A DNA stretch of 56,041 bases from Thermodesulfovibrionia bacterium (GTDB taxonomy: Bacteria > Nitrospirota > Thermodesulfovibrionia > UBA6902), in NCBI GenBank assembly GCA_945786855.1, contig CALZGI010000309.1, forward strand, positions 1 through 56,041, given 5' to 3'. The notes beneath the pieces were generated by a model. It did not search any database. It saw nothing but the letters and a program-made list of their open reading frames with translations, and was not told where the DNA came from. This document shows positions 19,246-49,882 of this stretch, in pieces (within the stretch, counting starts at the first letter, position 1; each line of letters opens with the position of its first letter). A program made the translations under genes and the position numbers.

Positions 19246-19361
19246 TATTCTGTCAGTACGGGAAGCAGGGGAGCAGTTCTCTCTCACCCGGTTTCACGAT
19301 TTCATGCATTACATCAAAACAGCAGAGACAATGTTTTTCAACGGACATCATATTATTCATT

Positions 19362-25491: not shown

Positions 25492-25546
25492 TGTATCTTT
25501 CAAGGAAACAGCAATCCCGTCATAAAATTATCCACGCATGGTATAA

Positions 25547-25562
25547 AGCAATTATCTTGCCA
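25547..25562 (-). promoter_or_regulatory. sigma-54 (RpoN) promoter, glycosyltransferase/stator operon
   Basis: On the minus strand the site reads TGGCAAGATAATTGCT, with the GG (-24) and GC (-12) doublets at the exact ten-base separation required for RpoN. The expected start is near 25535, leaving a leader of about 45 bases before the ATG at 25491. Three more such sites occur in this island, which supports the call. Confidence 0.8.
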
Positions 25563-29500: not shown

Positions 29501-31522
29501 TTATCTCAGGACCGATAATAATTCCGTGATCTCTTCGTCTTCCGGATGATTCTCAAGGTAGGACAAATACAATTTCCTGGCATCCTCTGTATTCTCAAAA
29601 TTTTCGAGCAACCTGCCGCAATTGACAATAACACTGCGATCGTTCGGATCAATGTTCAACGCCTTTGCAAAAAACTCAGATGCATTGCGAGCATCACCTT
29701 TTTGGAGACAGACAACACCGAGGTTATTATAAGCCGTTGCATATCCTGAAGCCATTTCAGCGGCCTTCAAAAATAAGTTCATGGCTCCGTCAATGTCGCC
29801 GTTATTAAACAACTCTTCTCCCATCTTATTGAATGCACATGGTGAATTACCATTGCCTGGCACAGTTATGAGTTCGTTATAGTCTGCCTTCGGGAATATT
29901 TTCAGCTTTCCTCCTATGGTGGCATCCAGAATTATTTTTCCATTCTTTTCATATATTTCTTTAGCTATGGCGTATGATTTTTCAGAACGCTCAAGATCCG
30001 GATATTGCCACTGTATTCCCTTTCCAAAGTATTCAGGGTGAAAGTGATTCTCGTCGCTGCTGTCCGCCGTTACGAGTTTATTGGGATCCCCCGACGCAGG
30101 AAAATTGTGGTCAACACCAATCAGGATTACAGTATGAAATCCGAGATAAAAAGCCACCTGCATGGCACAGTACGTGACGGTCCACCCCTCACACCACTGC
30201 ATTGTTTCAAGGTCTTCGATGAAATCGTGGGCGCCTGAGCTTTCCATAAAAAACGTATTCCACCTGTTCCTTACATATCTCTGAGATTCACTCCTGATGA
30301 ACTTGACTGATTTTATTGAGTTAATCTCTTCAGAAAACTGTTCGATCACATGCGGATTCACTGAACAATAAAAGGTGGGTTCGAACCCCATATTCTCATA
30401 GTTCAGATAAATCCTGTTCGTTCCAATAGTGTATTCATGCTTCAAAATCCGCATATCGGTTTTTTTCAGGCTTGGTCCGTTCCCGATAATAAAGCAGCGC
30501 TGACCTTCAAATATATTCTTCATGTCTTTCATGCTCAGATTCTTCTTATTATTATTGACCGGACTGTCCGGCGGACCGCTTAATTCATATGACATGCCCG
30601 GAAGTTTATTCTCAGCTTTGCTGTAAAAATATTTAATCATCAGTTCCCTGACTTCGTCGTCCTTGACACCATGCATGAGCGGGAGCCTGTTCGCAAATCC
30701 CCGGAATATATCCTCCCCGCTCATCCTCGTTTTGAAGTCGCAAAAGATAATATCCTTTCTTGCTTCATATGTATCCAGAGGCCACTGAAAGGGATCGTTC
30801 AAGCCGGTCTTTTCCTTCCAATACAGGGCAAAAAGAAAATAATCATAAGCCACGTCATACCCGCTTATAACAGGACCATAGAAACAGTTACCGGCAGTCT
30901 CTGTGCCCTCTCCATCCCTGTATTGCCACCACGGATTCTCATATCTGTTATAAAAATAGTGTTCAAGGGGCAAGTTTCTGAGCTTTCTGCAGTCATAGAG
31001 GGAACACCCCGCCCAGTGTGTAGGAATTAATGTATGTCCGATCAGCCCATGCTTCAGGTGCCCGAATATCGGGCCATCATAATTTCTCCATGCTTCGAAT
31101 ATGTCACGAAGCCAGCCCTCTTTTAAAATAACGCAGTCAGGTTCTATCATCAGAAAGGAATCAAGCAGCTGAATGTATTTATAAACACAGAGGTTCCATT
31201 CGAAGATGCTCTTTTTTTGTGATCTGGTTCGTATCGCCTGATTCCCTCCATAACGAAGCAGGTTCGGGTCATTGTCAATCATTTCCTGAGGGACTTTGAT
31301 GTCCGGGAGTTCATTTGAAAAAAGTGCTTTTTTCCGGTTCATAAACTGCAGAAGCGTATCTGATATACATATACTCCCGATACTGTCTCCATACTGCAGA
31401 TAATATGTGCATTCAAGCCCCTCATCAACTGACATGAGGAGTTCAAGCATTTTTTCTGCGGAAACCTGGTCACCCTTATGAAAATTCAGGACGATGTTAA
31501 TATTTTCAGACCTTTTGACCAT
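29501..31522 (-). CDS. DUF115/MptE-like protein with N-terminal GT-like region and C-terminal TPRs
   Basis: About 673 residues. Residues 1-310 resemble a GT-A-like domain (DSFLMIEPDCVIL as a possible metal-binding DXD-type loop; family not certain). Residues about 335-560 form the DUF115/6-hydroxymethylpterin pyrophosphokinase-like domain found in MAF proteins, with GQRCFIIGNGPSLKKTD and the later VILIGVDHNFP. The last 100 residues are TPR repeats (AYNNLGVVCLQKGDARNASEFF). MAF-family proteins are required for pseudaminic/legionaminic acid transfer to flagellin in several bacteria. The frame is open to 31609, but GGAGG five bases before the ATG at 31522 fixes the start, overlapping the upstream GT2 by 17 bases. 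Confidence 0.85.
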   Translation of the reverse strand: MVKRSENINIVLNFHKGDQVSAEKMLELLMSVDEGLECTYYLQYGDSIGSICISDTLLQFMNRKKALFSNELPDIKVPQEMIDNDPNLLRYGGNQAIRTRSQKKSIFEWNLCVYKYIQLLDSFLMIEPDCVILKEGWLRDIFEAWRNYDGPIFGHLKHGLIGHTLIPTHWAGCSLYDCRKLRNLPLEHYFYNRYENPWWQYRDGEGTETAGNCFYGPVISGYDVAYDYFLFALYWKEKTGLNDPFQWPLDTYEARKDIIFCDFKTRMSGEDIFRGFANRLPLMHGVKDDEVRELMIKYFYSKAENKLPGMSYELSGPPDSPVNNNKKNLSMKDMKNIFEGQRCFIIGNGPSLKKTDMRILKHEYTIGTNRIYLNYENMGFEPTFYCSVNPHVIEQFSEEINSIKSVKFIRSESQRYVRNRWNTFFMESSGAHDFIEDLETMQWCEGWTVTYCAMQVAFYLGFHTVILIGVDHNFPASGDPNKLVTADSSDENHFHPEYFGKGIQWQYPDLERSEKSYAIAKEIYEKNGKIILDATIGGKLKIFPKADYNELITVPGNGNSPCAFNKMGEELFNNGDIDGAMNLFLKAAEMASGYATAYNNLGVVCLQKGDARNASEFFAKALNIDPNDRSVIVNCGRLLENFENTEDARKLYLSYLENHPEDEEITELLSVLR

Positions 31523-32630
31523 CACGCCTCCTCTCGACACCGTAAGGGCTGCGATTATGCTCCCTGTATCTTTGCAGCAACACGGCAAGACTACTGCATT
31601 CCCCGCCAAAACCAGCCTTTAACTCTTCAATATAATTTATCACCCTTTCTTTGACATCTTCCCATACACTAAGCCATTCATTCTCAGGTTTACACGTTGC
31701 CTTTAATGTTTCATATTTCACAATGTGATCCAGCTCTTCATGAGATATCTGCTCAATCATGCGCCAGCTTATATCTTCAGAAATCTCTTTGGCTGCTTCA
31801 TGCTGACCGTTAATAACACACTTAATGGAAGCGCTGAATGCCCTTTTCGTCAGTGCCAAGAAGTATACGGCACTGCCGTAACCATTCATGAATTCCTCAA
31901 TGGCCGTGTCCATGCTGGTCGAAAATATTTTTTCCATTACCTGCTTGCACTGTCTATGATGCTTAAGTATTTTTGCCTGGGTCACACTTTCCGGATGATA
32001 CGTTATTGCCACCTTGCAGGAGTTGACTTTCTTAAAGTAACCTCCTTTCCTCATCATCCTGAACCACAGATCATAGTCTTCACCGTTTGTCAGGGACTCG
32101 TCAAATCCGCCAGCACTTACTATCTCTTTCTTTTTAGCAATCACGCAGCAGGTACCGAATGGATTGTTTGTTACCGTAGAAAAGTATACCCTCTCATTTG
32201 GCAGGGGCGAGTTAAACAAGGCGGTGGAACGCAACACATTGTTTTTGTCATCAACAACGACAGCCGGGCAGAAAACGCCGAGCATCTCAGGATCGCTCTC
32301 TTCAATCAGCACCTTCATCCTCCGGTCCAGACTATTCTCAAGTAACAGGTCGTCGGCATCAAGAAAACCTATATATTCACCGGAGGCAACCGTTACCCCC
32401 CTGTTTCTCGCGGCTGAGACTCCACTGTTTTCCTGCGTCACGCTCTTAAATCTTGAGTCCCACTCTTCAAACTGCCGGATGAGGTCCGGGGAACTATCAG
32501 TGCTGCCGTCATCTACTATAATAATTTCAAAGTTCGAGTACTGCTCATTTTTAATAGAGAACAGTGTCCTTTTTAACGTCGCAGCACCGTTATAGCAGGG
32601 GACCACTATGGAAACAAGGGGTTCATGCAT
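31506..32630 (-). CDS. GT2 family glycosyltransferase
   Basis: A 374-residue inverting GT-A enzyme. The N-terminal 230 residues show VSIVVPCYNGAATLKRTL, IIVDDGSTDSSPDLI, NSGVSAARNRGV and the metal-binding FLDADDLL, with the acceptor-side segment TNGEDYDLWFRM. The C-terminal 130 residues are helical. Start ATG at 32630 with GGGAGG six bases upstream; it overlaps the preceding sulfotransferase gene by 8 bases and the following DUF115 gene by 17 bases, so these are translationally coupled. Donor and acceptor are unknown; the glycan-island context suggests flagellar glycan synthesis. Confidence 0.93.
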   Translation of the reverse strand: MHEPLVSIVVPCYNGAATLKRTLFSIKNEQYSNFEIIIVDDGSTDSSPDLIRQFEEWDSRFKSVTQENSGVSAARNRGVTVASGEYIGFLDADDLLLENSLDRRMKVLIEESDPEMLGVFCPAVVVDDKNNVLRSTALFNSPLPNERVYFSTVTNNPFGTCCVIAKKKEIVSAGGFDESLTNGEDYDLWFRMMRKGGYFKKVNSCKVAITYHPESVTQAKILKHHRQCKQVMEKIFSTSMDTAIEEFMNGYGSAVYFLALTKRAFSASIKCVINGQHEAAKEISEDISWRMIEQISHEELDHIVKYETLKATCKPENEWLSVWEDVKERVINYIEELKAGFGGECSSLAVLLQRYREHNRSPYGVERRRDGQKV

Positions 32631-35409: not shown

Positions 35410-36147
35410 TTACCTTTTAACCGGGTCGTGCAGACACGCTCCTATACCTCCATCAACATTTACTGAAGCCCCTGTCATAAAACTGGCTTCCGGACTGGCC
35501 AGGAAGAAAACAGCCCGGGCTACCTCATCCTGACTGGCAATTCGTTCCAATGGATGATAGGACCCCAATTCCTTCAGTCCGTCTGGATTATCTTTAAATC
35601 CATCGAGCAGCATCGGTGTATCCGTGGCTGCCGGGAGTACTGCATTCACCCGAACATCGGGCGCAAGTTCCAGCGCGAGCGCTCGAGTCAGCGAAAGGAG
35701 AGCTCCCTTGCTTGTGGAATAAGCGGTAAATTCCCTTTTTGTAAGCTCCGCGTGGATACTCGAAACATTCACAACACTTCCTCTTGCCGCACGCAGCATA
35801 GGCAAAAACATCTGTGTCAGCCAGAATGGAGCAAGCAGGTTCGTGTCAAGCGTCACGTCCCAGTCTGCCGTTGTAAGATTCTCGACCGATTTAACAATCT
35901 GGACAGCTGCATTATTTACGAGGACATCCAGCCTTCCATCAGCAAAACTTTTCGCTTTTTCATAGAATTCTTTGCATTCTGAATCCCCGTTCCGCAGTCT
36001 GCTTACATCAAACTGAATTACTTCATAATCAAGACCAGAGGCTGCCCTGCTGTCTACACCGATAACCTTGTACCCTTTCCTCTCTAAAAGCTCGCAGACC
36101 GCCTTGCCAATTCCTCCTGCAGCTCCTGTTACGAGTGCTGATTTCAT
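35410..36147 (-). CDS. SDR-family oxidoreductase (PtmA-like)
   Basis: A 245-residue short-chain dehydrogenase/reductase: dinucleotide motif TGAAGGIGKAV near the N-terminus, NNAA, the catalytic Ser in VVNVSSIHAE, the catalytic YSTSK and the C-terminal TGASVNVDGG. It acts on a sugar or hydroxy-acid substrate with NAD(P)H. Adjacent acylneuraminate cytidylyltransferase, hydroxyacid dehydrogenase and cyclase genes recall the Campylobacter flagellin-modification pair ptmA (SDR) and ptmB (CMP-sugar synthetase), so a role in an activated acidic sugar pathway is likely but not proven. Good ribosome binding site AGAGGAAG. Confidence 0.92.
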   Translation of the reverse strand: MKSALVTGAAGGIGKAVCELLERKGYKVIGVDSRAASGLDYEVIQFDVSRLRNGDSECKEFYEKAKSFADGRLDVLVNNAAVQIVKSVENLTTADWDVTLDTNLLAPFWLTQMFLPMLRAARGSVVNVSSIHAELTKREFTAYSTSKGALLSLTRALALELAPDVRVNAVLPAATDTPMLLDGFKDNPDGLKELGSYHPLERIASQDEVARAVFFLASPEASFMTGASVNVDGGIGACLHDPVKR

Positions 36148-36159
36148 ATTATCTTCCTC

Positions 36160-37116
36160 TTAACCTGCTACTGAAACCGGTTCTTTATTCAGCTCTGCCA
36201 GTAAGTTCGATATTGTTGACTCATGAATTCTCATCCAGTGCTCCTCACTGCTGTTCGCGTTATGAGGAGAGAGGAGTACATTGGACATTGAGCGCAATGG
36301 GCTGTCAAGGGGGAGCGGCTCATCTTCAAAGACATCAAGGGCCGCACCGGCTATTAATTTATTTTGCAGGGCCTTAATAACAGCAGGTTCATCGACAAGC
36401 GGCCCTCTCGCAGCATTTATAAAGTAAGCCGTCCGTTTCATGAGTGAAAATTCAGATCTTCCCATGATGTGATAGCTTGAGGGATTAAGGTCACAGTTCA
36501 GGCTGACAAAATCACTCGCGCGCAGCAGGTCCTCTTTGTCCACCATTTGGATACCTGACTCATCAATAAACTCAGAAGGCATTTCCTCAATGTCATTCCC
36601 GAGTAATCGCATTTGAAATGCCTTTGCACGCTCTATAACCGCTTTCCCTGTATTCCCTGTACCGATGACTCCCAGTGTACGATTAGAAAGTGAAAAACAG
36701 TTCAGCTTTTCCCACTCACCGTCCTTCATTCTTTCATCTATCCACGGGATGCGCCTGGCAAATGCAAGCATATATCCGAGTACCTGGTCCGCCACCGGCT
36801 CATTAAAGGCCCCCGGTGTATTGCGGATGGCAATGCCGAGTTCTCTCGCTGTTATCTGATCGAATGAGTCTATGCCCGTGCCCCACTTCGAAAGCACTTT
36901 CAGTCTGGGAGCTGACCTTAAGACCTTTGATGTAAACTGGTCGTCGCCGGCAATTACTCCGTCAATATCGCCGATAACTTCCAGTAGCTCCTGTTCGGAA
37001 AGACGCTCTTTGACCGGGGGCACTATGACCTCAATATCGTTATCATTAAAAAAATGCATGTACTCCTTTATTACGGGCTGCATGTACGGGGCAGTTATAA
37101 GTACCTTAAATTTCAT
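36160..37116 (-). CDS. D-2-hydroxyacid dehydrogenase (PGDH-like)
   Basis: A 318-residue NAD-dependent D-isomer-specific 2-hydroxyacid dehydrogenase. It contains the Rossmann motif GVIGTGNTGKAVIERA, an acidic residue after the second strand (GNDIEE), the catalytic Arg in INAARGPLVDE, the Glu in FEDEPLP and the catalytic His in LLSPHNANSSEEHW. Length fits the family. It overlaps the cytidylyltransferase upstream by 11 bases. A place in serine synthesis is possible, but the tight operon with CMP-sugar and SDR genes suggests oxidation or reduction of an intermediate of the filament glycan. Confidence 0.92.
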   Translation of the reverse strand: MKFKVLITAPYMQPVIKEYMHFFNDNDIEVIVPPVKERLSEQELLEVIGDIDGVIAGDDQFTSKVLRSAPRLKVLSKWGTGIDSFDQITARELGIAIRNTPGAFNEPVADQVLGYMLAFARRIPWIDERMKDGEWEKLNCFSLSNRTLGVIGTGNTGKAVIERAKAFQMRLLGNDIEEMPSEFIDESGIQMVDKEDLLRASDFVSLNCDLNPSSYHIMGRSEFSLMKRTAYFINAARGPLVDEPAVIKALQNKLIAGAALDVFEDEPLPLDSPLRSMSNVLLSPHNANSSEEHWMRIHESTISNLLAELNKEPVSVAG

Positions 37117-37810
37117 TACTGAACACCTTCGCCTTTCTCGTTTTTTTATAAAGAAATTCCGCTAATAGAAAGTCCATTTCTTCATCAATATCTGCCGCTT
37201 CCTCACGGTCAATTTCAAACATTATGGGTTTTTGACCTATGCGGTTTCCACGCTCTTTGAGAATCTCTTTTGAAAAAATATATATCGTTGAGTTCTCCTC
37301 AAAAACAGGGGGCAAATCCTGTGTTCTTAACAATTCATCAGGATCATGATTGATGGGATTTCCCTGTTTGTCATAAAGGCGTGTCTGCAAACGGGTAACC
37401 CCGAAGAGTGAATCATGATCACCGGGCCTCAGAAAGGTCTCGATCGCCTTTGATATGGACTCTGTTGTAAGAAGCGGATTAGTGCTGTGTGTCTGCAGGT
37501 AGAAGTCAGCTTCTATTTCAGTTACATCGTAAAGCAGAATATTGTTCATGGGTTCAAATCCCGAACGCAGATGGGCAGGTCGTTCAATCAGCCTGACAGG
37601 GAAATTTCTTGGCGCGTCATCAAGGATAAAAGGACTGTCCGTGTCAATACATACTTCATCAATATGCGGACATTCAAGAAGGCTTCCGATTATGTGATGA
37701 TACAAAGGCCTGTCCCCAAGAAGACGATAATTCTTCCCCGGCACCCGTTCACTGTTATGTCTCATGGGAACCAGTGCAGCAATTCTTGGTTTTTTCACAT
37801 TTTTCATCAT
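37106..37810 (-). CDS. acylneuraminate cytidylyltransferase family protein (PtmB-like)
   Basis: A 234-residue CMP-sugar synthetase. The N-terminal nucleotide-binding motif is ALVPMRHNSERVPGKNYRLLGDRPLY, followed by VCIDTDSP and the QTHSTNPLLTTESI segment that corresponds to the cytidine-binding LQPTSPLR region of NeuA/PseF/LegF. The family activates sialic, legionaminic or pseudaminic acids, or Kdo-like acids, with CTP. No NeuB-type nonulosonate synthase is in the window, so the sugar is unknown. The ATG lies at 37810, directly abutting the cyclase stop at 37811. Confidence 0.9.
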   Translation of the reverse strand: MMKNVKKPRIAALVPMRHNSERVPGKNYRLLGDRPLYHHIIGSLLECPHIDEVCIDTDSPFILDDAPRNFPVRLIERPAHLRSGFEPMNNILLYDVTEIEADFYLQTHSTNPLLTTESISKAIETFLRPGDHDSLFGVTRLQTRLYDKQGNPINHDPDELLRTQDLPPVFEENSTIYIFSKEILKERGNRIGQKPIMFEIDREEAADIDEEMDFLLAEFLYKKTRKAKVFSNEI

Positions 37811-38479
37811 TTAATCACCGCAGCAGCACGCGCTCTTCGTTCTCAAAACCGCTCTCGCAGGCGCACCTTCAGCACCGACAAGTTTTATGGGAAGGCAGAT
37901 TAATTCATACATACCCGCATTAACCATCGATAGATTAAGCCCTTCAAGTATGACAACCCCTCCCCTTAAAAGCGTAATGTGATTGCGTGAGGCCGGTTCC
38001 CTGTATAATTCGACTGAAAGGTAGTCAACACCGAATAGCTTGATACCTCTCTCAACGATCCATTCAGCAGCATCCGAATTAAGGGCCGCAAAATCCTGTC
38101 TGAACATGTCTCCCCATTCTTCCCACAACCTTGAGTTCCCTGTCTTCATCAGAAGTCTTTCTGTTTCATCGGGTATTTCGAGGGTCTCAAGATCATCGGG
38201 TGTAATGATGTCGGCCTCCGGCAAATACGCGACATACGCATTCCCTACCAATATATCCAGAGGAATCTGACTTACACTCTCTCCGTCGGGCAGAAAATGA
38301 AGAGACGTCTCGATATGAGTACCTGTATGCACATCGCATGTGAGCCTGGATACATTCACGTCATTTCCGTTTTCAAAACAGGAAAGCCGTTCCACCTTCA
38401 TCCCTTCACTTCCCGGCCAGGTAGGCAGTGCTGAATCCAGAGGTACCGATATATCAATGAGGTTGTTCGATTTTTTCAT
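37811..38479 (-). CDS. cyclase/kynurenine formamidase family hydrolase
   Basis: A 222-residue protein of the metal-dependent cyclase family (PF04199 type). The metal motif is H51-T-G-T-H55-I-E57-T-S-L-H61, a variant of HxGTHxDxPxH in which Asp is replaced by Glu and Pro by Ser. DISVPLDSALPTWPG is the typical N-terminal segment. Family members hydrolyse formamides or cyclic amides/lactones. It precedes the cytidylyltransferase, hydroxyacid dehydrogenase and SDR genes without a gap, so it may process an N-acylated or lactone intermediate of the sugar acid; this is inference. The C-terminus ends CCCGD. Confidence 0.88.
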   Translation of the reverse strand: MKKSNNLIDISVPLDSALPTWPGSEGMKVERLSCFENGNDVNVSRLTCDVHTGTHIETSLHFLPDGESVSQIPLDILVGNAYVAYLPEADIITPDDLETLEIPDETERLLMKTGNSRLWEEWGDMFRQDFAALNSDAAEWIVERGIKLFGVDYLSVELYREPASRNHITLLRGGVVILEGLNLSMVNAGMYELICLPIKLVGAEGAPARAVLRTKSACCCGD

Positions 38480-39776: not shown

Positions 39777-39792
39777 AGCAATATCTGTGCCA
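39777..39792 (-). promoter_or_regulatory. sigma-54 (RpoN) promoter, merR/glycosylation operon
   Basis: On the minus strand TGGCACAGATATTGCT matches the consensus TGGCAC-N5-TTGC[A/T] completely, with correct GG-GC spacing. The expected start is near 39766, about 60 bases before the merR ATG. It would drive a unit that continues through the GT2, cyclase, CMP-sugar, sulfotransferase and large glycosyltransferase genes. Confidence 0.85.
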
Positions 39793-40118: not shown

Positions 40119-40487
40119 CTATACTTTTCCTGCTTCCTGCATCTCCTGCCAGGAACTGCGGATGATATCAATGACCTTCTCTGCATCACTGAGTGCGTCA
40201 CGATTGTTCTGCAGGTCTGCCTTTGCAAGACTGTCAAGAACAAAATCGTAAAGGCTCCTGAGATTTACGGCAATTTCTCCGGTGTCCATATTGAGAGAGC
40301 CCGACAGTTCTTTTACAATATCCGTTGCCTTTTTGATATATAAAGACCTGCCGGAAGAATCGCCTATGTCCAGCTTTTCTTTTGCTTTACCGATAAAGTT
40401 GATTGCACCGTCATAGAGCATTGAAACGATCTGCACTCCATCGGTTCCCCTCTGCTCCGCCTGTGGTTTCAGTGCTGTTCCTCCCAT
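40119..40487 (-). CDS. fliS: flagellar export chaperone FliS (first copy)
   Basis: A 122-residue helical protein with the FliS hallmark VQIVSMLYDGAINFIGKAKEKL and a second conserved block LSGSLNMDTGEIAVNLRSLYDFVLDSLAKADLQNN. FliS binds the C-terminus of flagellin in the cytoplasm and prevents premature polymerisation. The frame is open to 40577, but GAAGGAGG before the ATG at 40487 fixes the start. A second fliS lies at 46566-46958; the two flank the 1798-residue glycosyltransferase gene. This copy has its own sigma-54-like promoter. Confidence 0.93.
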   Translation of the reverse strand: MGGTALKPQAEQRGTDGVQIVSMLYDGAINFIGKAKEKLDIGDSSGRSLYIKKATDIVKELSGSLNMDTGEIAVNLRSLYDFVLDSLAKADLQNNRDALSDAEKVIDIIRSSWQEMQEAGKV

Positions 40488-40546
40488 GGTTCCCTCCTTC
40501 TCTTTTCTTTCATAGATTGACGAAATGTTTTTTCTATTTTTTAAAA

Positions 40547-40562
40547 AGCAATATTTGTGCCC
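40547..40562 (-). promoter_or_regulatory. sigma-54 (RpoN) promoter of fliS1
   Basis: On the minus strand GGGCACAAATATTGCT matches the RpoN consensus at all positions except the first base, and keeps the GG and GC doublets at the right distance. Transcription would start near 40535, about 48 bases before the fliS ATG. The rest of the 270-base gap to the large gene (40488-40759) shows no gene. Confidence 0.75.
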
Positions 40563-40759
40563 GATTTGCATGCACATGTGCTTTAAGCAGGCCCACTCCT
40601 GAAGTGGCCATAATTGAAGGGGTTCTCCTTTATTTCGAACGGAAGATGACCCGTCTGCGGCTTTTCCTGAATTTCATATATTCCCGGAAAGGTCTTCCTG
40701 CTGCGGAAATATTTTCCTGTCTTCTTTCGTATATTGAGGCAGGATAAACCTGTAAAGGT

Positions 40760-43700
40760 TCAGACTTTTACTTGCTTTCTTGCTGCCTCTATCTCCTTCA
40801 CTAGAGAAACTGCCCGTCTGTGTTCTCGGTCAAAAATAAAAATCTTCGCCAATTCATCTTCCGCCCGATCAATCTTTCCCGTATCTATAAGTGTCTGCGC
40901 CAGTGACGCAAGCGCATCAAGGTTAGCCGGATGATAGAGCAGGTATTCTCTTATATAGTTCTCTACAGCATCATGTCGTTTCAGTTCCCTTCCGGTCTGG
41001 ACAATTGAGTCAAGTACATTCTTCCTATCAGGGTCTTCTTCAAAGGTCCTGCAGAGAACCTCAAAACCATCTACTCTGCTCCCCTCTTTCCATAACTGCA
41101 TTCCCTTCATAAAATCTTCATTCAATCTCTCTTCCTCAGTTTTCTTATTCAGAACCTTTTCGAATATTAATCTGATTCTTTCTGCCGTCCTTTGAGAATC
41201 AAACATCTTCTTTGCTCTTGACAATGCCCTGGCCCCGAGTTCTGCTCTGAGTGCATGATCCAGAATCAGTTTCTTTATGGCCCCATACAGAGACAGATGA
41301 TCATTCGGTTGAATTAATATCCCATCATCTCCCACTACTTCAGGGATGGACCCTGAACGAGTTGAAATAACAGGTTTCCCGCAGGCCATGCTTTCTATGA
41401 GCACCATTCCGAACTGCTCCTGCCAATCTCTGGTAGATATACTTGGGAGGACAAATATGTCGGAAAGATTATGCAATCTGTGCATATAATGATAAGGATA
41501 TTCCTCCAGTAAAGTAACATGGCTGCCAATCCCCAGATCTGTTATCCTTTTATGAACACCGTCTAATTCGGGGCCTTTCCCAATAATGAGAAATCGTACA
41601 AAACGTTCTTTTATAGAGTCATCCCGAATAACTCCTGTCGCCGCGTGTATCAGGTCATAAATCCCCTTCTCCCACACCATCCTTCCGATAAAGAGCACCA
41701 CTATTTCGTCATTACCAATTCCGATTTTTTCTCTGTCTCTTTCAATATTCTTCTTATCAGGCTTAAAGACATTCAGATCCACACCCATTGGAACTACATC
41801 AATCCGTGCTTCAGAAACACCCTCAAGCATGAGTGCCTCTTTTGCACGCTGAGTAACAGCAATGAAATGGTCAGCTCCATGTCGGACCGTTTTCTTTATA
41901 CGGTGAACCTCTTCATACTGATCATAGTTAAATGGAATATTTTCCCATTCAAGACATACAACCTTGCATCCGTATTTCTGTTTTGCCTGAACGGCCTGTT
42001 CCGAAAACCTGTATGTAATATCAGCAGAATATATTAGATCCTTGTCGGAAAGATGATCTTCAAGTCCTTTCATATCCAGAAGCAGACCCTGTGATTCACA
42101 GGGGAGTTTCACCACAGGAAACTGAATGTGGCTTAGATCGAAAACATGCGGTTCTGTTGTATAGGCAGTGATAGAATACATGTCACGAAGAGGTTCATAG
42201 TTCTGCATTTCCCATTTATTGATATTTGCTCCTCTTACGATAGCGAGTTTCTTCTTATTCATCTCTCCTGATTTCATTTCAGGCAATATTTCTTCATTTT
42301 CAGGTCTTCTCTTGTACTCATACTTCTTCCCCTCTTCACTGATGCATTTATCCTGCTGCTCTGAACAATTAATCAGGGCACGATTATCAGGAAGGTACTC
42401 TATTCTGAATCCGTCCTCATGCACTTTCGTTTCCTCATCAGGTTCAATTTTCCCCTTCCACTTACTTAAAAAGTGAAGTGTATTTCGTTCACCGTGATCA
42501 AGCCTTCCCTCGGTACTTTCTTCATAATGGAGAAGAGTGCTTTCGGGGTTATACATAATCTTCAGTCCTTTTTCTCTGACTCTCAGACAAAAGTCAACAT
42601 CTTCATATCCGTTCAAAAATCCCTCATCAAACATGTCCAGTGCCAGGAAAACATTTCTTTTTACAAGCATGCAGGCCGCAGTTACTGCATTGAACTCCCT
42701 GAGGTAGTTGACTGCAGGATGCTCCCTTTCAATACCCTTGTATATATGGGATATGCTCAATCCTGATTCACGACAACCGAATACTACACCAGCGTGCTGC
42801 ACCCTATCATCCGGGTAGAGCAGTTTACTTCCCACAACTGCTACGTCCGGATTCCCGTCGGCAACGCTCACCATGCTATCCAGCCAGCCCGGTTCAGGAA
42901 CGGTGTCATTATTCAGAAAGACCAGAAATTCACCCTCTGCAGCCATAGCCCCCTGATTGCAGGACCGGGCAAAGCCAAGGTTCTCTCCGTTCGTGATAAT
43001 CTTTACATTTCCTTCAAGGCATTTCAGAAACTCACCTGTTCCGTCCGTTGAGGCATTATCAATAATAATCACTTCGTAGGGTTCATATGCTGTATTCAAT
43101 GAGAGAGCTTCGAGACACTGTTTCGTATATTCAAGGTTATTCATGACAGGAATGATGATTGATGCCATACCCTTAATGTCGTGTCCTGCTGACTTTTCAT
43201 TCATCGTTGCTCTTTTATTATTCTTTGTATCGCTCTGTACAATCATTTCTGAGCGGAGTGAATTGAGTGTGTCCAGCACTTCACAGTTATCAGTGCTGGC
43301 CTTTTCAACAGCCGTCAGAATCTTTTCCGCATCTGCATATTGTTTATCTTCAATCAGCCTGGCGGTCATATCAATAAAACTGTCAGAGTAACTGGGATCA
43401 AACATGATGGTACGCGTTACCCACTCTCCCGGGATATCACTCCTGCCCTCCAGGGAATAAAGGTCACATAATACTGCGTAGAACACTTCAATATCCGGGT
43501 ATTGTTTTGCAAGCTCAGCATACTCATCTATTGCCTGTAAGAATTTAGATTCTGATATGAATGTAGCTGCCAGTTTGATTCTGTTATTCAAATCATTTCC
43601 CTTGTCGGGAGAATTATGAGATATCATTTCCAGGTTATACATCATATATGCACGCTTCTGAGCATCCAGCACATGGGGTTTGTCTTTTGCGTAATCTCGA

Positions 43701-46156
43701 TATTTTTTATGTACAGCAATACCGGTTCTATAGAAAGCTTCCATACCTTTACTCGTCATTGACGTACCGTCATCCCGTGACCTGAACTCCGCAGTGACCT
43801 TTTTGATATGAGGCATTTCATAAAACCTGGACATACGAATCCAAAGGTCCCAGTCTTCCACAACGGGGAGAGATTCATCAAATAATCCTGTCTTATCGAG
43901 ACATGATTTTTCGTGCATGAAGCAGAGGACAGGCACAAAGTTCGATACCAGAATCTGGTCATAGTCAAAATCCTGTGAATAGGGAAGGTCTATTTTTTGG
44001 GTAACATACTGTCCGTTTTCCTTGACCTGATGGGCTCTGTGAGCATCGGTATAAACAATTTTATGATCGCTGTTTTCAAGGTAGTGTACGAGTGTTTCAA
44101 GATGGTCAGGATAGAAAATATCATCATCATCAAGATAAGCGATATATTTCCCTCTCGACAGCTTAATCCCTGTATTCCTGGCCGCCGCAAGCCCCCTGTT
44201 TACAGAATGTCTGACGTAAGTTATATTGCTTTTCCCGTTCATTGAAGTAATAATGGGTTCAATGTCTGGCCCTGCATCATTTACAACAAGAAGCTCGAAA
44301 TTTTTATACTTCTGATCAAGTACACTCTTGACAGCATCCGCCACCATTTCCGGTCTGTTATGTGTTGGAACAATTACTGACACCATAACTTCGTGGTCCT
44401 CGTCATCTCTCAGGTTCTGCTGCTTCGCATCTCCAGTGCTCCTTCCGTCGGTTTCAGCTATTAACCTCAACTGTTCAGCACACTTTTCAGATGCATCATG
44501 GTCCACTGTATTGCAGTGCTTGAGAATAAAAGAATCTCTCTCTTCTTTCTTATGATCCAGGCCTTCCAGTGCTTTTTTTATTGCCTCTGCGAGGTCAGTT
44601 CTGGAACTGGCGATTTCTATTGCCCCCGTATCATCCTCTGTAAATATCCTGAAGGGCTCTTTGTGAGGATTGTAATAGACAACCCCCCTTCCCTGTATTA
44701 CCGCTTCATAAATTATTGTGCTGAATCTTGTTAAAATGAGTGATGATTTTTCAATCTGCGGCTTAAGCTTAAAGGCGTCGGATCTCACTGCATGATAATC
44801 AACCGGGAATTCCCCCCTGTCTCTCGGGTGCTGTGAGATAAAGAAGTCAAGGTTTAATCCTCTGCATGCGCTCACGGCATCTGCGACCCATTGATCGCGA
44901 ATATCCTCATAAATGCCGTATGTAAAGTTCGCATTAATCAGTACCACAGGTTTATCCGGGAGAGGAAGATCGTTCATTGAATCATACTTGGGATTGCCGG
45001 TAATAATGACATTATCGCTCCGTCTGATATACTTCTTCATTAGCGGACCCTGCATAAATGCGTAATCTGCATGCATCATCCTGTTAATACTGGTATCGAT
45101 AAAGTCCAGGCAGCCCTCCTGCAGGCATACAGTAGGTATGCCAAGGGATTTCACTTCCTTCACTAACTGTCTTTCCTCCGGGCCCCAATCATTGGCAAAA
45201 ATTACAACAGAAGGATTTATGGAGCGAAGGATTCCGTTCTGATACTTGAAATATTCATGTCCCAGTTTATTCAGATAATACTCTGCATTCTCCTGCCTTG
45301 TCTCGAATATCATGAATTTTGCACTCTCCAGTTTTTGTGCCACTGGATTCATTAAATGAACGTGCGTATCATTTGATGGAACAAATAAATACAGATAGTC
45401 CCGGCTCTTTTCCTGTGCATCATGACACGGGACTTCATCGGCAGAAGTTGCAGTTTTAATTTTCTTTATACCGCCTACAACAAATTCAGGATCATTGCAA
45501 TTGAATTTCTGATATCTTTTCTGATATTTATCACGTAAATAAAGAACATTTGCCCTGTATTTTTCTCTTATTTCATCGAGTGTATGCTGAACGCTTTTCT
45601 CATCAAAAATGTCCATACTGTCAGGAATACTTAAGTTTGTCTGCTGAGATGCTTCAAGCCAGCTTGTCTTGTCAGACAACGCGAACGTAGCCAGAAACAG
45701 ACCGCCATCTTTCAGTAATGCCATACTTTTTTTATAGAGCTCACGAATTTTTTCCGGTTCATTATGCTCAATAGCCGAAAGCCAGAAAATGGCATCAACA
45801 GAATTTTCATCAAAACTGTTCATCTCCAGAAAGTCTTCATAATAGTCGACATTGTCCGTTTTATTCTGATGACAATAGCCATAAGGCCGGTCAATGCCCA
45901 GTATGCTGATGTTGAATTTCTTTTCCAGGAAATTATGCAATTTTGATCTGCCGCAGCCCACATCCAGGATCACTAACTCCCTGCCCCGCTTATCGGCAAG
46001 AAATTTCTGCATCTCCATGGTGATCCACACATGGTCTATTACATAATTCCAGCCAAGTGCAGGACTGCCGGTGAGATGGTTAAGTCCATTCCTTTTCAGT
46101 TCATCTAGAATCTCCTCTTCTTTTGAAATAAATTCCGGATCAATGATGGTCAGCAT
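40760..46156 (-). CDS. 1798-residue methyltransferase/multi-glycosyltransferase protein
   Basis: An exceptionally long fusion. Residues 1-230: class I SAM-dependent methyltransferase (ILDVGCGRSKLHNFL near 70). Residues about 250-560: GT-B-like domain resembling CDP-glycerol transferases/capsule proteins (YLFVPSNDTHVHLMNP, IITGNPKYDSM, ISQHPRDRGEFP, TRFSTIIYEAVIQGRGVVYY). Residues about 590-850: GT2 (VIVPTHNRPEM, YLDDDDIFYPDH). Residues about 870-985: TPR-like linker. Residues about 993-1265: second GT2 of rhamnosyltransferase type (IIIDNASTDGTGEFL, FLNNDTVPEPGWLD). Residues about 1300-1680: GT4 (GANINKWE, VVPMGVDLNVFKPD, FIGRMVWEKGIYD, ESMACGKPVISTRSGSIPEVV). Residues 1690-1798: TPR. Start ATG with AAGGGAG upstream. 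It probably assembles and methylates a multi-sugar chain; the acceptor is inferred to be flagellin. Confidence 0.88.
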   Translation of the reverse strand: MLTIIDPEFISKEEEILDELKRNGLNHLTGSPALGWNYVIDHVWITMEMQKFLADKRGRELVILDVGCGRSKLHNFLEKKFNISILGIDRPYGYCHQNKTDNVDYYEDFLEMNSFDENSVDAIFWLSAIEHNEPEKIRELYKKSMALLKDGGLFLATFALSDKTSWLEASQQTNLSIPDSMDIFDEKSVQHTLDEIREKYRANVLYLRDKYQKRYQKFNCNDPEFVVGGIKKIKTATSADEVPCHDAQEKSRDYLYLFVPSNDTHVHLMNPVAQKLESAKFMIFETRQENAEYYLNKLGHEYFKYQNGILRSINPSVVIFANDWGPEERQLVKEVKSLGIPTVCLQEGCLDFIDTSINRMMHADYAFMQGPLMKKYIRRSDNVIITGNPKYDSMNDLPLPDKPVVLINANFTYGIYEDIRDQWVADAVSACRGLNLDFFISQHPRDRGEFPVDYHAVRSDAFKLKPQIEKSSLILTRFSTIIYEAVIQGRGVVYYNPHKEPFRIFTEDDTGAIEIASSRTDLAEAIKKALEGLDHKKEERDSFILKHCNTVDHDASEKCAEQLRLIAETDGRSTGDAKQQNLRDDEDHEVMVSVIVPTHNRPEMVADAVKSVLDQKYKNFELLVVNDAGPDIEPIITSMNGKSNITYVRHSVNRGLAAARNTGIKLSRGKYIAYLDDDDIFYPDHLETLVHYLENSDHKIVYTDAHRAHQVKENGQYVTQKIDLPYSQDFDYDQILVSNFVPVLCFMHEKSCLDKTGLFDESLPVVEDWDLWIRMSRFYEMPHIKKVTAEFRSRDDGTSMTSKGMEAFYRTGIAVHKKYRDYAKDKPHVLDAQKRAYMMYNLEMISHNSPDKGNDLNNRIKLAATFISESKFLQAIDEYAELAKQYPDIEVFYAVLCDLYSLEGRSDIPGEWVTRTIMFDPSYSDSFIDMTARLIEDKQYADAEKILTAVEKASTDNCEVLDTLNSLRSEMIVQSDTKNNKRATMNEKSAGHDIKGMASIIIPVMNNLEYTKQCLEALSLNTAYEPYEVIIIDNASTDGTGEFLKCLEGNVKIITNGENLGFARSCNQGAMAAEGEFLVFLNNDTVPEPGWLDSMVSVADGNPDVAVVGSKLLYPDDRVQHAGVVFGCRESGLSISHIYKGIEREHPAVNYLREFNAVTAACMLVKRNVFLALDMFDEGFLNGYEDVDFCLRVREKGLKIMYNPESTLLHYEESTEGRLDHGERNTLHFLSKWKGKIEPDEETKVHEDGFRIEYLPDNRALINCSEQQDKCISEEGKKYEYKRRPENEEILPEMKSGEMNKKKLAIVRGANINKWEMQNYEPLRDMYSITAYTTEPHVFDLSHIQFPVVKLPCESQGLLLDMKGLEDHLSDKDLIYSADITYRFSEQAVQAKQKYGCKVVCLEWENIPFNYDQYEEVHRIKKTVRHGADHFIAVTQRAKEALMLEGVSEARIDVVPMGVDLNVFKPDKKNIERDREKIGIGNDEIVVLFIGRMVWEKGIYDLIHAATGVIRDDSIKERFVRFLIIGKGPELDGVHKRITDLGIGSHVTLLEEYPYHYMHRLHNLSDIFVLPSISTRDWQEQFGMVLIESMACGKPVISTRSGSIPEVVGDDGILIQPNDHLSLYGAIKKLILDHALRAELGARALSRAKKMFDSQRTAERIRLIFEKVLNKKTEEERLNEDFMKGMQLWKEGSRVDGFEVLCRTFEEDPDRKNVLDSIVQTGRELKRHDAVENYIREYLLYHPANLDALASLAQTLIDTGKIDRAEDELAKIFIFDREHRRAVSLVKEIEAARKQVKV

Positions 46157-46347: not shown

Positions 46348-46363
46348 TGCAATTACTTTGCCA
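46348..46363 (-). promoter_or_regulatory. sigma-54 (RpoN) promoter of the large glycosyltransferase gene
   Basis: On the minus strand TGGCAAAGTAATTGCA keeps both invariant doublets of the -24/-12 element and differs from consensus at one non-critical base. The expected start is near 46336, giving a leader of about 180 bases before the ATG at 46156. This position also argues against a gene in the overlapping 46169-46381 frame. Confidence 0.75.
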
Positions 46364-46565: not shown

Positions 46566-46958
46566 TTATACTGCTGCATGGACCTCTACAGAATTTTTCA
46601 TCTTCTGCATCATCTCCTGCCACCCGTCCCTGATTGTCTGAACAACCTTTTGAGCATCTTCAAGGGCCTGAATATCATTGTTGAGATTTGCATAAAGGAG
46701 TCGCTGCAGAACGTACTCGTAGAGGCTTCTAAGATTTTTTGAAATGTCCCCCCCTTTTTCCATATCCAATACATTAGAGAGTTCACTGATAATGGCAGTT
46801 ACTTTTGAGAAATGATGTCCCTTTGTTAGAACATCACCGTTTTCTATTTTCTTCCTGGCAATCTTTAAATGGTTCAATGCTCCTTCATAGAGCATAAAAA
46901 TAATCTGCACTTCATCAGTATTAGCAAGAACCGTCTTTTTGTAACCATTTATATCCAT
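46566..46958 (-). CDS. fliS: flagellar export chaperone FliS (second copy)
   Basis: A 130-residue FliS: VQIIFMLYEGALNHLKIARKKI and LDMEKGGDISKNLRSLYEYVLQRLLYANLNND. It is downstream of fliD by 17 bases, the classical fliD-fliS arrangement, so this copy is likely the main flagellin chaperone. The C-terminus (MQKMKNSVEVHAAV) is longer and more basic than in the other copy. Sequence divergence between the two FliS proteins suggests different clients. Confidence 0.94.
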   Translation of the reverse strand: MDINGYKKTVLANTDEVQIIFMLYEGALNHLKIARKKIENGDVLTKGHHFSKVTAIISELSNVLDMEKGGDISKNLRSLYEYVLQRLLYANLNNDIQALEDAQKVVQTIRDGWQEMMQKMKNSVEVHAAV

Positions 46959-46975: not shown

Positions 46976-48346
46976 CTATGCTGTTGCGGAAAAGTTCCCC
47001 AAGAAGTTACCTATCGTATTAAAACTGCTTACCGTTGTTTCCAGTGCCGTAAATTTCCGGACCAGATCTACCTCTGCTTTATCCAGCCTGTATTCCATAC
47101 CTTTTATCGTATCTGCTATATTGTCAATTACGTCCTGCAGTCCGTCTTTCCTGAGAGTGATGGCTCCGTCTACAGAACTGGTAGTTTCACTAATATATTT
47201 ATGGATCTGCGTTGCAATGCCATTTGTGCCGTCTTTAAAGAGGTCTGCAACATCATCCAGATTGGAACCAAGTTTTGTGTCCAGGATTGAACTGTTTATT
47301 TTTAGGTTGCCCGTCTCATAGTCTGTTGTGATACCGATCTCGGCAAGCACACTCAGGCTTCCTGACAGTCCCTGTACGCTTCCTGATATGATGCTCCTCA
47401 ACCTGTTTTGTATATTTCGGGCCGTTGATTCACCTGAGAGGGCACCGCTTTCCTCCGTTTCAGAGTCGTATGACATGTTCGTTGAAAAAAATGACATCAT
47501 ATCATTATAGGCGGTGACAAATCCTTCTATCTGCTCCTTTATGGCGTCATTATCCGCGGACACTGATACTATCGCTGAGGAATTTTCCGTTTTCAGGTTT
47601 AATGTGACGCCTTCTATAACATCTCCGATAGCATTTGTACTCCTTGAGATTTGCAGACCATCAACAGTAAAGTCAGCGTCCTTTGCTGTCTTTTTCTCTT
47701 CGAATGCACCGGCCGTAAAGTTTACGGTACCTCCGTTACCATCCAGAGTTGTTCCGGCATCAACACTAATGGTATTTTCAGCCCCCGTATCATTTCCTGT
47801 AATAATAAGACGATAGTTCGTTCCATCATTCACAACAGTAGCGTTCACTCCCGGATTATCAGAATCATCGATAATAAGATTCCTGAGATCATCCAGCGTT
47901 GATCCATCTGCAACACTGAGTGTCCTCTGCGTGCCCGCATAGGTGTATTGAAAGGTCTTGTCACTGCCGCTGTTATTGACAACATCAGAAGATGCAGTCA
48001 GCCCTGTCCCGTTATGCACCTGCTTTTCTTCTGAAGCGAGAGAGGTCACCGATATGGAGTAATTTCCACTCGAAGCAGTACCGGTTGCGCTCGCGTCAAG
48101 AACATCTTCATCACTGACGGAGGCAGTCTTCACATAAAAGCTGGATGTTGTTTTCAGCTTTTCAGCAGAGCTCTTCAGGGCTGAAAGGTTTGATGAGAGT
48201 TCACCGTAGGATGACAATTTATCATTATATGATGATTTCTTGCTCTCTAATATCTGAATCGGCCTGCGCTTAATTTCAATGAGCTTTTCAATCAATTCAT
48301 TGTAGTCTACCCCTGTGCTCAAACCTCCTACGGTAAAGCTCGACAT
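46976..48346 (-). CDS. fliD: flagellar hook-associated protein 2 (filament cap)
   Basis: A 456-residue FliD. The N-terminus MSSFTVGGLSTGVDYNELIEKLIEIKRRPI is the conserved start of the family. The middle (GNYSISVTSLASEEKQVHN, DFTVDGLQISRSTN, AIGDVIEGVTLNLK) matches the FliD_N/FliD_C layout, and the C-terminal helix ends with the coiled coil MEYRLDKAEVDLVRKFTALETTVSSFNTIGNFL. It forms the cap under which exported flagellin polymerises. The start is set by AAGGAGGG four bases upstream; it directly abuts the flaG stop. Confidence 0.96.
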   Translation of the reverse strand: MSSFTVGGLSTGVDYNELIEKLIEIKRRPIQILESKKSSYNDKLSSYGELSSNLSALKSSAEKLKTTSSFYVKTASVSDEDVLDASATGTASSGNYSISVTSLASEEKQVHNGTGLTASSDVVNNSGSDKTFQYTYAGTQRTLSVADGSTLDDLRNLIIDDSDNPGVNATVVNDGTNYRLIITGNDTGAENTISVDAGTTLDGNGGTVNFTAGAFEEKKTAKDADFTVDGLQISRSTNAIGDVIEGVTLNLKTENSSAIVSVSADNDAIKEQIEGFVTAYNDMMSFFSTNMSYDSETEESGALSGESTARNIQNRLRSIISGSVQGLSGSLSVLAEIGITTDYETGNLKINSSILDTKLGSNLDDVADLFKDGTNGIATQIHKYISETTSSVDGAITLRKDGLQDVIDNIADTIKGMEYRLDKAEVDLVRKFTALETTVSSFNTIGNFLGNFSATA

Positions 48347-48709
48347 CTATCCCTCCTTGTCTATCAGCAGACCTTTTAAGTTTTTCGCATTTTTTGAAAG
48401 CTCAATGAATTCCTCAGCCGGTATTTGCCGTATTACTTCGTCTGTTTCGCCATCAACTACTTTCACAATCATCATGTTCAGGTCTTTCTCGAGTTCCATA
48501 CGAATTTCCCTATTAAAAAATTTTGCTGCACTGACTATTTTCTGAACTGCCTGCTCTGTATCTATCTTTTCATCTGTGAGTAACTCATCTTGATTATATG
48601 CTTTCTCCTGCTTCTCTTCCGCCCTTTCAGCTTGAACATCTTTACGTCCCCTCACTTCAGATGCAGGCACATTCTCTATTCCAGTTTGTTTGAAAATGCC
48701 GTTTATCAT
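48347..48709 (-). CDS. flaG: FlaG family protein
   Basis: About 120 residues. The C-terminal half matches the FlaG domain (RIMELEKDLN-like: REIRMELEKDLNMMIVKVVDGETDEVIRQIPAEEFIEL). The N-terminal half is polar and charged, as usual. FlaG proteins influence filament length and fliD function and normally lie between flagellin and fliD, as here. The frame is open to a GTG at 48721; the ATG at 48709 has AGGGA four bases upstream and is preferred. Confidence 0.9.
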   Translation of the reverse strand: MINGIFKQTGIENVPASEVRGRKDVQAERAEEKQEKAYNQDELLTDEKIDTEQAVQKIVSAAKFFNREIRMELEKDLNMMIVKVVDGETDEVIRQIPAEEFIELSKNAKNLKGLLIDKEG

Positions 48710-48738
48710 ATTTTCCCTCACCCCTTTCGTTTAAAATT

Positions 48739-48791: not shown

Positions 48792-49637
48792 CTATCCTAA
48801 GAGCTGCAACGCATACTGCGGCATTACATTTGCCTGTGCAAGGACAGCAACACCAGCCTGAAGAATTATCTGGCTCTTCGTAAGGTTAGCTGTTTCGGTT
48901 GCGAAATCAGCATCTTTAATTCTTGAGTTTGCTGCCGAAAGGTTTTCAGCTGTAATTTCCAGATTGGCGATTGTACTTCCAAGCCTGTTCTGAGCAGCAC
49001 CGAGATTACCTCTCCTCGTGGACACTGTTCCGATTGCACTGTCAACAAGTGCCAGCATCGACTGTGCATTTGATGCTGTGTCTATACTTGACACCGTAGC
49101 ACTGAGTCCAAGAGCTGATGAGTTGATGTCTCTCAATGAACCGCCGCTTACAGAAATTCTGTCATTGGCAGTGTTGTTGATTCCGACCTGCAATGACACA
49201 CCATTTGCGCTCAATGTTCCGTCCAGAAGTTTCAGTCCGTTAAACTCTGTCGTGTCGGAAATTCTCGTGATTTCAGTCTTGAGGTCACTAAACTCCGTCT
49301 GGAGAGCTGTCCTGTCAGATGTTGACAGAGTGCCTGTAGCTGCCTGAGTTGAAAGCTCTCTCATCCGAGTGAGAATATTATGGATCTCGTTCATTCCGCC
49401 TTCAGCTGTCTGCACAACACTGATGCCGTCCTGGGCGTTTCTGACAGCCTGGTTAATACCTCTGATGTGGGCGGAGAGTTTCATGGAGATGGCCATTCCG
49501 GCAGCATCATCCTTTGCAGAGTTGATTCTGAGACCTGAGGATAATCTTTCTACAGATCTTCCCAGGCTGTTCTGAGTGTTCTTGACGTTTCTCTGAGCAT
49601 TCAGAGAGAATAGGTTGGTGTTAACTACTAGTCCCAT
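48792..49637 (-). CDS. fliC: flagellin
   Basis: A 281-residue flagellin with an N-terminal D0/D1 region (GLVVNTNLFSLNAQRNVKNTQNSLGRSVERLSSGLRINSAKDDAAGMAIS) and a C-terminal D1/D0 region (AAQNRLGSTIANLEITAENLSAANSRIKDADFATE ... ILQAGVAVLAQANVMPQYALQLL). The centre is short and holds only a small Ser/Thr/Asn-rich segment (about 130-190), so it lacks the large D2/D3 domains of enterobacterial flagellins. The start is set by AAGGAGG seven bases before 49637; an upstream ATG at 49661 is not used. It has a full-consensus sigma-28 promoter and a long leader. Only one flagellin gene is seen in the window. Confidence 0.97.
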   Translation of the reverse strand: MGLVVNTNLFSLNAQRNVKNTQNSLGRSVERLSSGLRINSAKDDAAGMAISMKLSAHIRGINQAVRNAQDGISVVQTAEGGMNEIHNILTRMRELSTQAATGTLSTSDRTALQTEFSDLKTEITRISDTTEFNGLKLLDGTLSANGVSLQVGINNTANDRISVSGGSLRDINSSALGLSATVSSIDTASNAQSMLALVDSAIGTVSTRRGNLGAAQNRLGSTIANLEITAENLSAANSRIKDADFATETANLTKSQIILQAGVAVLAQANVMPQYALQLLG

Positions 49638-49855
49638 GGTTTCCTCCTTGATATTCGTCAATATGTCTCTCGACGTTCTCCTGTCCGGACATCTGACTTT
49701 TTTCGGCTTCCGTGCCGTTTTTTTGGCAAACTTATGTCTGCCCTTTCATGCTAAGGATTAGGTCAATTTATTGTGCTTTGCAAAATGTCTGCTCTGCACC
49801 TTTCTTTTTCCATCACCCCTTTCTTGACCGTCTCCGTTCTCTGTTCTTAGTTTAC
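49638..49855 (-). promoter_or_regulatory. fliC mRNA leader with putative CsrA-binding GGA sites
   Basis: The roughly 200-base leader between the sigma-28 promoter and the fliC start contains several GGA trinucleotides. One lies in the loop of a perfect small hairpin, CGGC-ACGGAA-GCCG (49704-49717). Another lies in a TGTCCGGACA palindrome just after it, and a further one overlaps the Shine-Dalgarno. GGA in a hairpin loop plus a GGA at the ribosome binding site is the arrangement CsrA uses to block translation, and csrA-fliW lie immediately upstream. Binding is inferred, not shown. Confidence 0.55.
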
Positions 49856-49882
49856 TTATCGGCATTTTGAAGCAAAACTTTA
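49856..49882 (-). promoter_or_regulatory. sigma-28 (FliA) promoter of fliC
   Basis: On the minus strand the -35 is TAAAGTTT (49875-49882), the spacer is 11 bases, and the -10 is GCCGATAA (49856-49863): a complete match to the E. coli FliA consensus. Transcription would begin near 49849 and run about 210 bases to the fliC start. Upstream to fliW (49883-50099) no gene is apparent. Confidence 0.93.

Follow-up and report, generated by a model that had tools for sequence, protein, structure and literature searches.

Which function could be served by a 1798-residue multidomain protein that is encoded between two genes for the flagellin chaperone FliS? This question is raised by a locus of an uncultured Thermodesulfovibrionia bacterium (contig CALZGI010000309.1), of which a stretch of 56,041 nucleotides, hereafter the window, was analyzed. 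The original prediction had read this protein (hereafter X) as a fusion of a methyltransferase, four glycosyltransferases (GTs) and TPR segments, which could build and cap an entire oligosaccharide of the flagellar filament.

Reading frame and domains of protein X

The open reading frame of X (40760..46156, (-)) runs without interruption from 46156 to 40760 on the minus strand and comprises 1798 codons, as had been predicted. Its ATG is preceded by a Shine-Dalgarno-like GGGAG, and no membrane-helix-like hydropathy stretch was found in the protein (highest 19-residue mean 1.33). GC3 (0.39-0.45) is uniform from module to module and matches that of the flagellar neighbour genes, and the codon usage, even over every module, resembles that of the adjoining genes, which makes an assembly join or a frameshift unlikely. 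A frameshifted junction of separate genes, the weak point named at the outset, thus finds no support. The length, which had been called unusual, is not unique, as the relative G021 encodes a GT fusion of 2325 aa; this protein (L059:4550-11527, (-)) contains a GT4, three GT2, a radical SAM/SPASM domain and a DUF5672.

The N-terminal module (residues 1-240; 45437..46156, (-)) is a predicted class I SAM methyltransferase, a class assigned here on a PF13649/PF08241 score over cut-off together with motif I. Both were found, with Methyltransf_25 matching residues 63-152 (1.3e-8; 35.9 bits against a Pfam cut-off of 27) and motif I (DVGCG) at residue 65. Further downstream, Glycos_transf_2 (PF00535) exceeds its cut-off twice, at residues 593-748 and ~999-1215 (7.8e-63). 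The corresponding domains GT2a (residues 585-850; 43607..44404, (-)) and GT2b (residues 990-1240; 42437..43189, (-)) each carry DXD-type and ED motifs (YLDDD at 674 and EDWDL at 767; FLNND at 1080 and EDVDF at 1185), so that both are assigned to the GT2 family by profile and motif. The same kind of evidence places residues 1300-1672 (41141..42259, (-)) in GT4: Glycos_transf_1 (PF00534) lies over cut-off at residues 1471-1644 (5e-39) and the E-x7-E motif EQFGMVLIE starts at residue 1580. AlphaFold2 was run on the GT2b-GT4-TPR part with a ten-row alignment (mean pLDDT 71) and modelled the GT4 as a GT-B fold that, among solved structures, comes closest to MshA, HepE and BshA (best Foldseek E 1.6e-20).

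With regard to the TPR segments, only part of the prediction held. The C-terminal TPR (residues 1673-1798; 40763..41140, (-)) is over cut-off for TPR_19 at residues 1726-1786 (4.1e-8), and the last 130 residues were modelled as TPR-like paired helices with a pLDDT of ~80-94 over most of their length. The first segment (residues 851-985; 43202..43606, (-)) stays sub-threshold (TPR_19, E 0.008) and is called TPR-like; it is 34% identical to the C-terminal end of the slot protein from G280 described below. With TPR and GT domains in one chain, X shows the combination that marks FlmG/Maf-1-type enzymes.

The fourth GT had been proposed as a CDP-glycerol-transferase-like GT-B domain (residues 241-575; 44432..45436, (-)). 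Here, no Pfam family matched over its cut-off: PF04464, the CDP-glycerol glycerophosphotransferase family, reached an E of 0.0036 (16.7 bits against a cut-off of 22.1), and we name the domain GT-B-like rather than filing it in this family. The BFO_1060 profile NF046086 (E 2.1e-8; 33.7 bits against a curated cut-off of 200 bits) and TIGR04396 (1.9e-5) match best on its C-terminal half, both far under their curated cut-offs, so that by profile the domain would not count as a BFO_1060 member either. The likeness to the BFO_1060, surface-polysaccharide and CDP-glycerol transferases is thus a weak one at the profile level, and a QHP motif is present at residue 442. Single-sequence structure prediction gave no usable fold (pLDDT 36.7), phmmer against the PDB returned no credible match, and 396 Nitrospirota genomes contained no homologue other than the domain itself. 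Likewise, 246 Nitrospirota genomes searched at E 1e-9 contained no homologue of the N-terminal 590 residues of X, and in viral contigs, plasmids and phages the domain and the N-terminal half matched only themselves. A role as nonulosonate transferase remains a guess, since our literature search linked BFO_1060 to no named enzyme. Altogether, the methyltransferase, both GT2 domains and the GT4 exceed their Pfam cut-offs and the predicted signature of every module is intact (DVGCG, DXD-type/ED, E-x7-E, QHP), but of the four proposed GT modules the one at residues 241-575 is matched by profiles weakly only.

The slot behind fliS1 in related genomes

X is embedded in the order flgI-flgJ-flgM-flgN-flgK-flgL-fliW-fliC-flaG-fliD-fliS1, followed by X and fliS2. 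The short flagellin gene fliC (48792..49661, (-)) encodes ~281 aa from an internal ATG and is 77-90% identical in relatives; flaG (48347..48721, (-)) and fliD (46976..48346, (-)) were assigned by synteny and identity. As predicted, the flanking genes are both fliS: fliS1 (46566..46958, (-)) matches PF02561 with 1.2e-36 and fliS2 (40119..40577, (-); likely internal start at ~40487) with 1.6e-27, and their products form two distinct clades in a tree (support 100/100). Elsewhere in the window, two different motAB pairs lie near each other (15459-17428, (+); 18535-20123, (-)).

We searched 37 genomes of the same family and found FliD at E 1e-40 in 22, including the window genome; the stretch 3' of fliD was read in 20 relatives. 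The slot fliC-flaG-fliD-fliS1-[X]-fliS2 is common to them, and its content varies. In 10/20 relatives, fliS1 is followed by fusions of the type MT_A-(TPR)-GT4-TPR, two of them cut by contig ends. Two relatives, G012 and G014, carry MT_B-tail-GT2b-GT4-TPR proteins (1395 and 1396 aa), and the GT4-TPR part stands alone in another two. G006 and G280 encode, in one chain, a methyltransferase, a B12-binding radical SAM domain and three GT2 without a GT4 (1337 and 1480 aa; L058:7436-11449, (-), and L071:8358-12800, (-)). The remaining four relatives have a lone MT_A (G274), an MT_B piece, fliS2 only and, in a distant member, unrelated content. A methyltransferase is thus present in the slots of 16/20 relatives, and the GT4-TPR modules are 55-67% identical to that of the window (55-66% over the aligned part). 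Other families encode similar GT4 proteins at a related locus (L055-L057), with the methyltransferase placed after the GT4. The expectation of the same architecture beside fliC and fliS was therefore borne out for the slot and its usual GT4-TPR end, but not for the front parts, which differ. As some relatives have GT4-TPR alone, a methyltransferase only or an empty slot, flagella do not depend on X.

Comparison of the single modules shows that X itself is a mosaic. GT2a shares 64-68% identity with the radical-SAM type of G006/G280 and <30% with G012/G014, whereas GT2b shares 62-69% with G012/G014 and 35-44% with G006/G280. The GT4, as the conserved anchor, shares 58-70% identity with those of the other GT4 carriers in the comparison and pairs with G014 in the GT4 tree (98/95); for GT2b and GT4 together, identity to G012/G014 ranges from 58 to 69%. 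The methyltransferase of X had no or <32% local match to MT_A and MT_B and is not orthologous to them. X thus joins modules of two slot types to two parts that were not found in the relatives, its methyltransferase and its GT-B-like domain. A similar exchange is seen between close relatives: G012 and G020 are sisters in both the GT4 tree (100/99) and the FliD tree (100/100), but their N-termini are MT_B-GT2b and MT_A, respectively, and within genus g7 the radical-SAM type of G006/G280 contrasts with MT_A-GT4 in G017, though FliD is 85% identical. The C-terminus of the slot protein thus tends to follow the species, and the front is exchanged between lineages.

A further constant element of the slot is a predicted sigma-54 promoter (pattern TGGCAN6TTGCW, with GG and GC mandatory). 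The -24/-12 box TGGCAAAGTAATTGCA lies 5' of X at 46348..46363 (-), and a box between fliS1 and X was found in 20/20 slots (the window and 19 relatives), 17 exact and three with one mismatch; mononucleotide shuffles of the same stretches gave chance expectations of 0.02 slots with an exact box and 0.18 with a one-mismatch box. It is located behind one extra gene in G012 and G020 and before fliS2 in G275, and occurs likewise in the distant L055 and L056. Only three exact boxes were found in the window against 0.26 expected, and all precede glycosylation genes: besides that of X, one (39777..39792, (-)) stands ahead of the MerR-led glycan island and one (25547-25562, (-)) ahead of the GT at 23728-25503. 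In addition, a sigma-54-like box with one mismatch (40547..40562, (-)) lies 5' of the probable fliS2 start. Given rpoN in the genome and the conserved GG and GC elements, X is predicted to belong to the sigma-54 flagellar genes. A perfect sigma-28 box, TAAAGTTT-N11-GCCGATAA (49856..49882, (-)), precedes fliC. In polar-flagellum hierarchies, sigma-54 genes come before sigma-28 flagellin, so X would exist before its proposed substrate.

A proposed role in flagellin glycosylation

Family synteny, the conserved sigma-54 box and the TPR/FliS precedents strongly support a link of X to the flagellar filament, as had been proposed. In our reading, X is probably a soluble flagellin-glycan assembly enzyme in a modular slot, timed by sigma-54. 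It would be transcribed from the sigma-54 promoter, probably at the hook/basal-body stage and ahead of the sigma-28-driven flagellin, and act in the cytoplasm. The C-terminal TPR, perhaps with the internal one, would hold flagellin while the GT4, the two GT2 and probably the GT-B-like domain add sugars stepwise to a flagellin O-glycan, which the N-terminal methyltransferase would methylate. Flagellin would be modified first and then be brought to the export gate by FliS, with the slot-specific FliS2 as a candidate dedicated partner. Swapping of N-terminal modules between lineages at a constant GT4-TPR end would yield a species-specific filament glycan. The flagellin acceptor, the sugars, the order and timing of the steps and the partner role of FliS2 are what we infer. 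More tentatively, and with less than even probability, the slot as a whole might be a flagellar glycotype-switching locus (swapped N-terminal modules, a GT4-TPR docking anchor, a dedicated FliS and a sigma-54 promoter), in which X would serve as an assembly line for building and capping the filament oligosaccharide on flagellin.

Each principle of X has a precedent, and the modular slot is, in our view, the more interesting part. WsaE of Geobacillus stearothermophilus likewise is a soluble single chain with an N-terminal methyltransferase and several GT domains, namely two rhamnosyltransferases, and its methyl cap terminates the glycan (PMC2943079); in contrast to X, it serves an S-layer glycan on a lipid carrier at a non-flagellar locus, with no TPR or GT4/GT-B set described. 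WsfC of Paenibacillus alvei fuses a CDP-glycerol-type transferase domain to two GT domains, but is an S-layer enzyme for which neither methyltransferase nor TPR is described. At flagellin loci, PA1091/FgtA of P. aeruginosa PAO1 joins a flagellin GT to a TagF-like domain, with CD0240/CD0244 as the C. difficile counterpart; these systems have one GT and a separate methyltransferase gene, and the GT-B-like domain of X falls below the Pfam cut-off of the TagF family. The type B GT2 of C. difficile (CDR20291_0242), which has a methyltransferase domain, was proposed to attach two rhamnoses and methylate both (PMC5207246), but has fewer domains, and no GT4/TPR or slot between two fliS genes is described. 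In FlmG of Caulobacter and in Maf-1, as proposed for X, a TPR is the part of a cytoplasmic flagellin glycosyltransferase that binds flagellin; the TPR of FlmG binds flagellin (PMC7591256) and the C-terminal TPR of Maf-1 confers flagellin specificity (according to work cited in PMC13317340). Unlike X, both have a single GT of another family for nonulosonic acid, and the TPR of FlmG is N-terminal. FliS-type chaperones of C. jejuni and A. caviae favour glycosylated flagellin, and in A. caviae glycosylation comes before chaperone binding (PMC4065374). No publication about glycosylated flagellin from this lineage came up in our literature search, which does not prove that none exists.

Several other explanations were weighed against this proposal. 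It is rather unlikely that X makes a phosphoglycan. In this case, its GT-B-like domain would be a CDP-type phosphotransferase as in PA1091/CD0244, and all three activities for a Type A/b-type-like flagellin glycan (GT, phosphotransferase and methyltransferase) would be joined in one chain. In PA1091, a GT2 is indeed fused to a phosphotransferase of the CD0244-like (TagF-like) kind, and the methyltransferase with which it works, PA1088, is a separate protein (PMC11833859, PMC10714395); the PF04464 match and the HP motif at 442 would agree. However, NF046086 and TIGR04396 outscore PF04464 on this domain, no counterpart of CD0241 (HAD/ThrH-like) is found among the annotated window genes, and the sole nearby cytidylyltransferase belongs with the CMP-sugar synthetases (PF02348), while CD0242 is described as a nucleotidyltransferase modelled on GDP-mannose pyrophosphorylase (PMC10714395). 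Somewhat less probable still is a methyltransferase that acts on flagellin itself or on a nucleotide-sugar donor instead of the glycan. Its presence in most slots, even alone in G274, makes methylation seem as constant as the GT4, and methylation of the flagellin protein exists (FliB, mentioned in PMC13317340); but its position before the GT4 in some proteins and after it in the paralogues L055-L057 is as expected were both to act on one sugar, and WsaE methylates its glycan (PMC2943079).

We consider it improbable that X merely lies in the flagellar cluster and, instead of acting on flagellin, produces a glycan that is lipid-linked or belongs to the envelope (LPS, capsule or S-layer). The GT2 and GT4 families serve all such pathways and the similar fusions WsaE and WsfC are S-layer enzymes, yet the position between flagellin-chaperone genes and the sigma-54 box are strictly conserved in the family, a Maf-like protein is encoded in the same island, and no wzm/wzt, flippase or oligosaccharyltransferase is found among the window genes annotated with Pfam, which are those from ~14 kb onwards. 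Least of all do we expect an artefact of assembly or binning, or dead modules. X lies on a single MAG contig from a bin with 6.8% contamination, and its N-terminal 590 residues and GT-B-like part lack homologues in the genomes searched; against this stand the unbroken, compositionally even frame, the GT2b-GT4-TPR fusion in G012 and G014, two genomes that are independent and assembled as one contig each, and the intact motifs.

If the proposed role of X in flagellin glycosylation is true, the slots would provide a modular set, made by nature, of soluble enzymes that build flagellin glycans with one docking end and varied catalytic modules. They would also offer a route to study how the filament surface diversifies while flagellin barely changes, and a ready test of the second FliS as a glycosylation partner. 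The nested series from GT4-TPR over MT-GT4-TPR and MT-GT2-GT4-TPR to the 1798-aa form would make the products of the modules readable by comparison.

The downstream glycan island

Downstream of fliS2, the window encodes a MerR-like regulator (named from sequence only), GT2s and further GTs, as well as a Maf-like flagellin glycosyltransferase with TPR (29501..31609, (-); PF01973, 2.8e-16). Given the Maf-like protein and these GTs, which could attach or extend glycans, X alone need not make the whole glycan. That X builds and caps a complete oligosaccharide, as first suggested, is plausible in view of WsaE and WsfC, but tentative, as the fourth GT module is weakly supported and other GTs lie in the island. 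The island also holds a cassette of cyclase-family, CMP-sugar-synthetase-like, 2-hydroxyacid dehydrogenase and SDR genes (35410-38479, (-)); its cyclase-family and CMP-sugar-synthetase-like members are conserved in G014 as well. A NeuB-like synthase is encoded elsewhere in the genome. A 927-aa chain with two sulfotransferase domains and TPR (32623-35406, (-)) suggests sulfated glycans. Finally, a 1205-aa protein (25843-29460, (-)) seems to have arisen by fusion, as G017 encodes its two parts in separate genes (L060; 470 and 562 aa).
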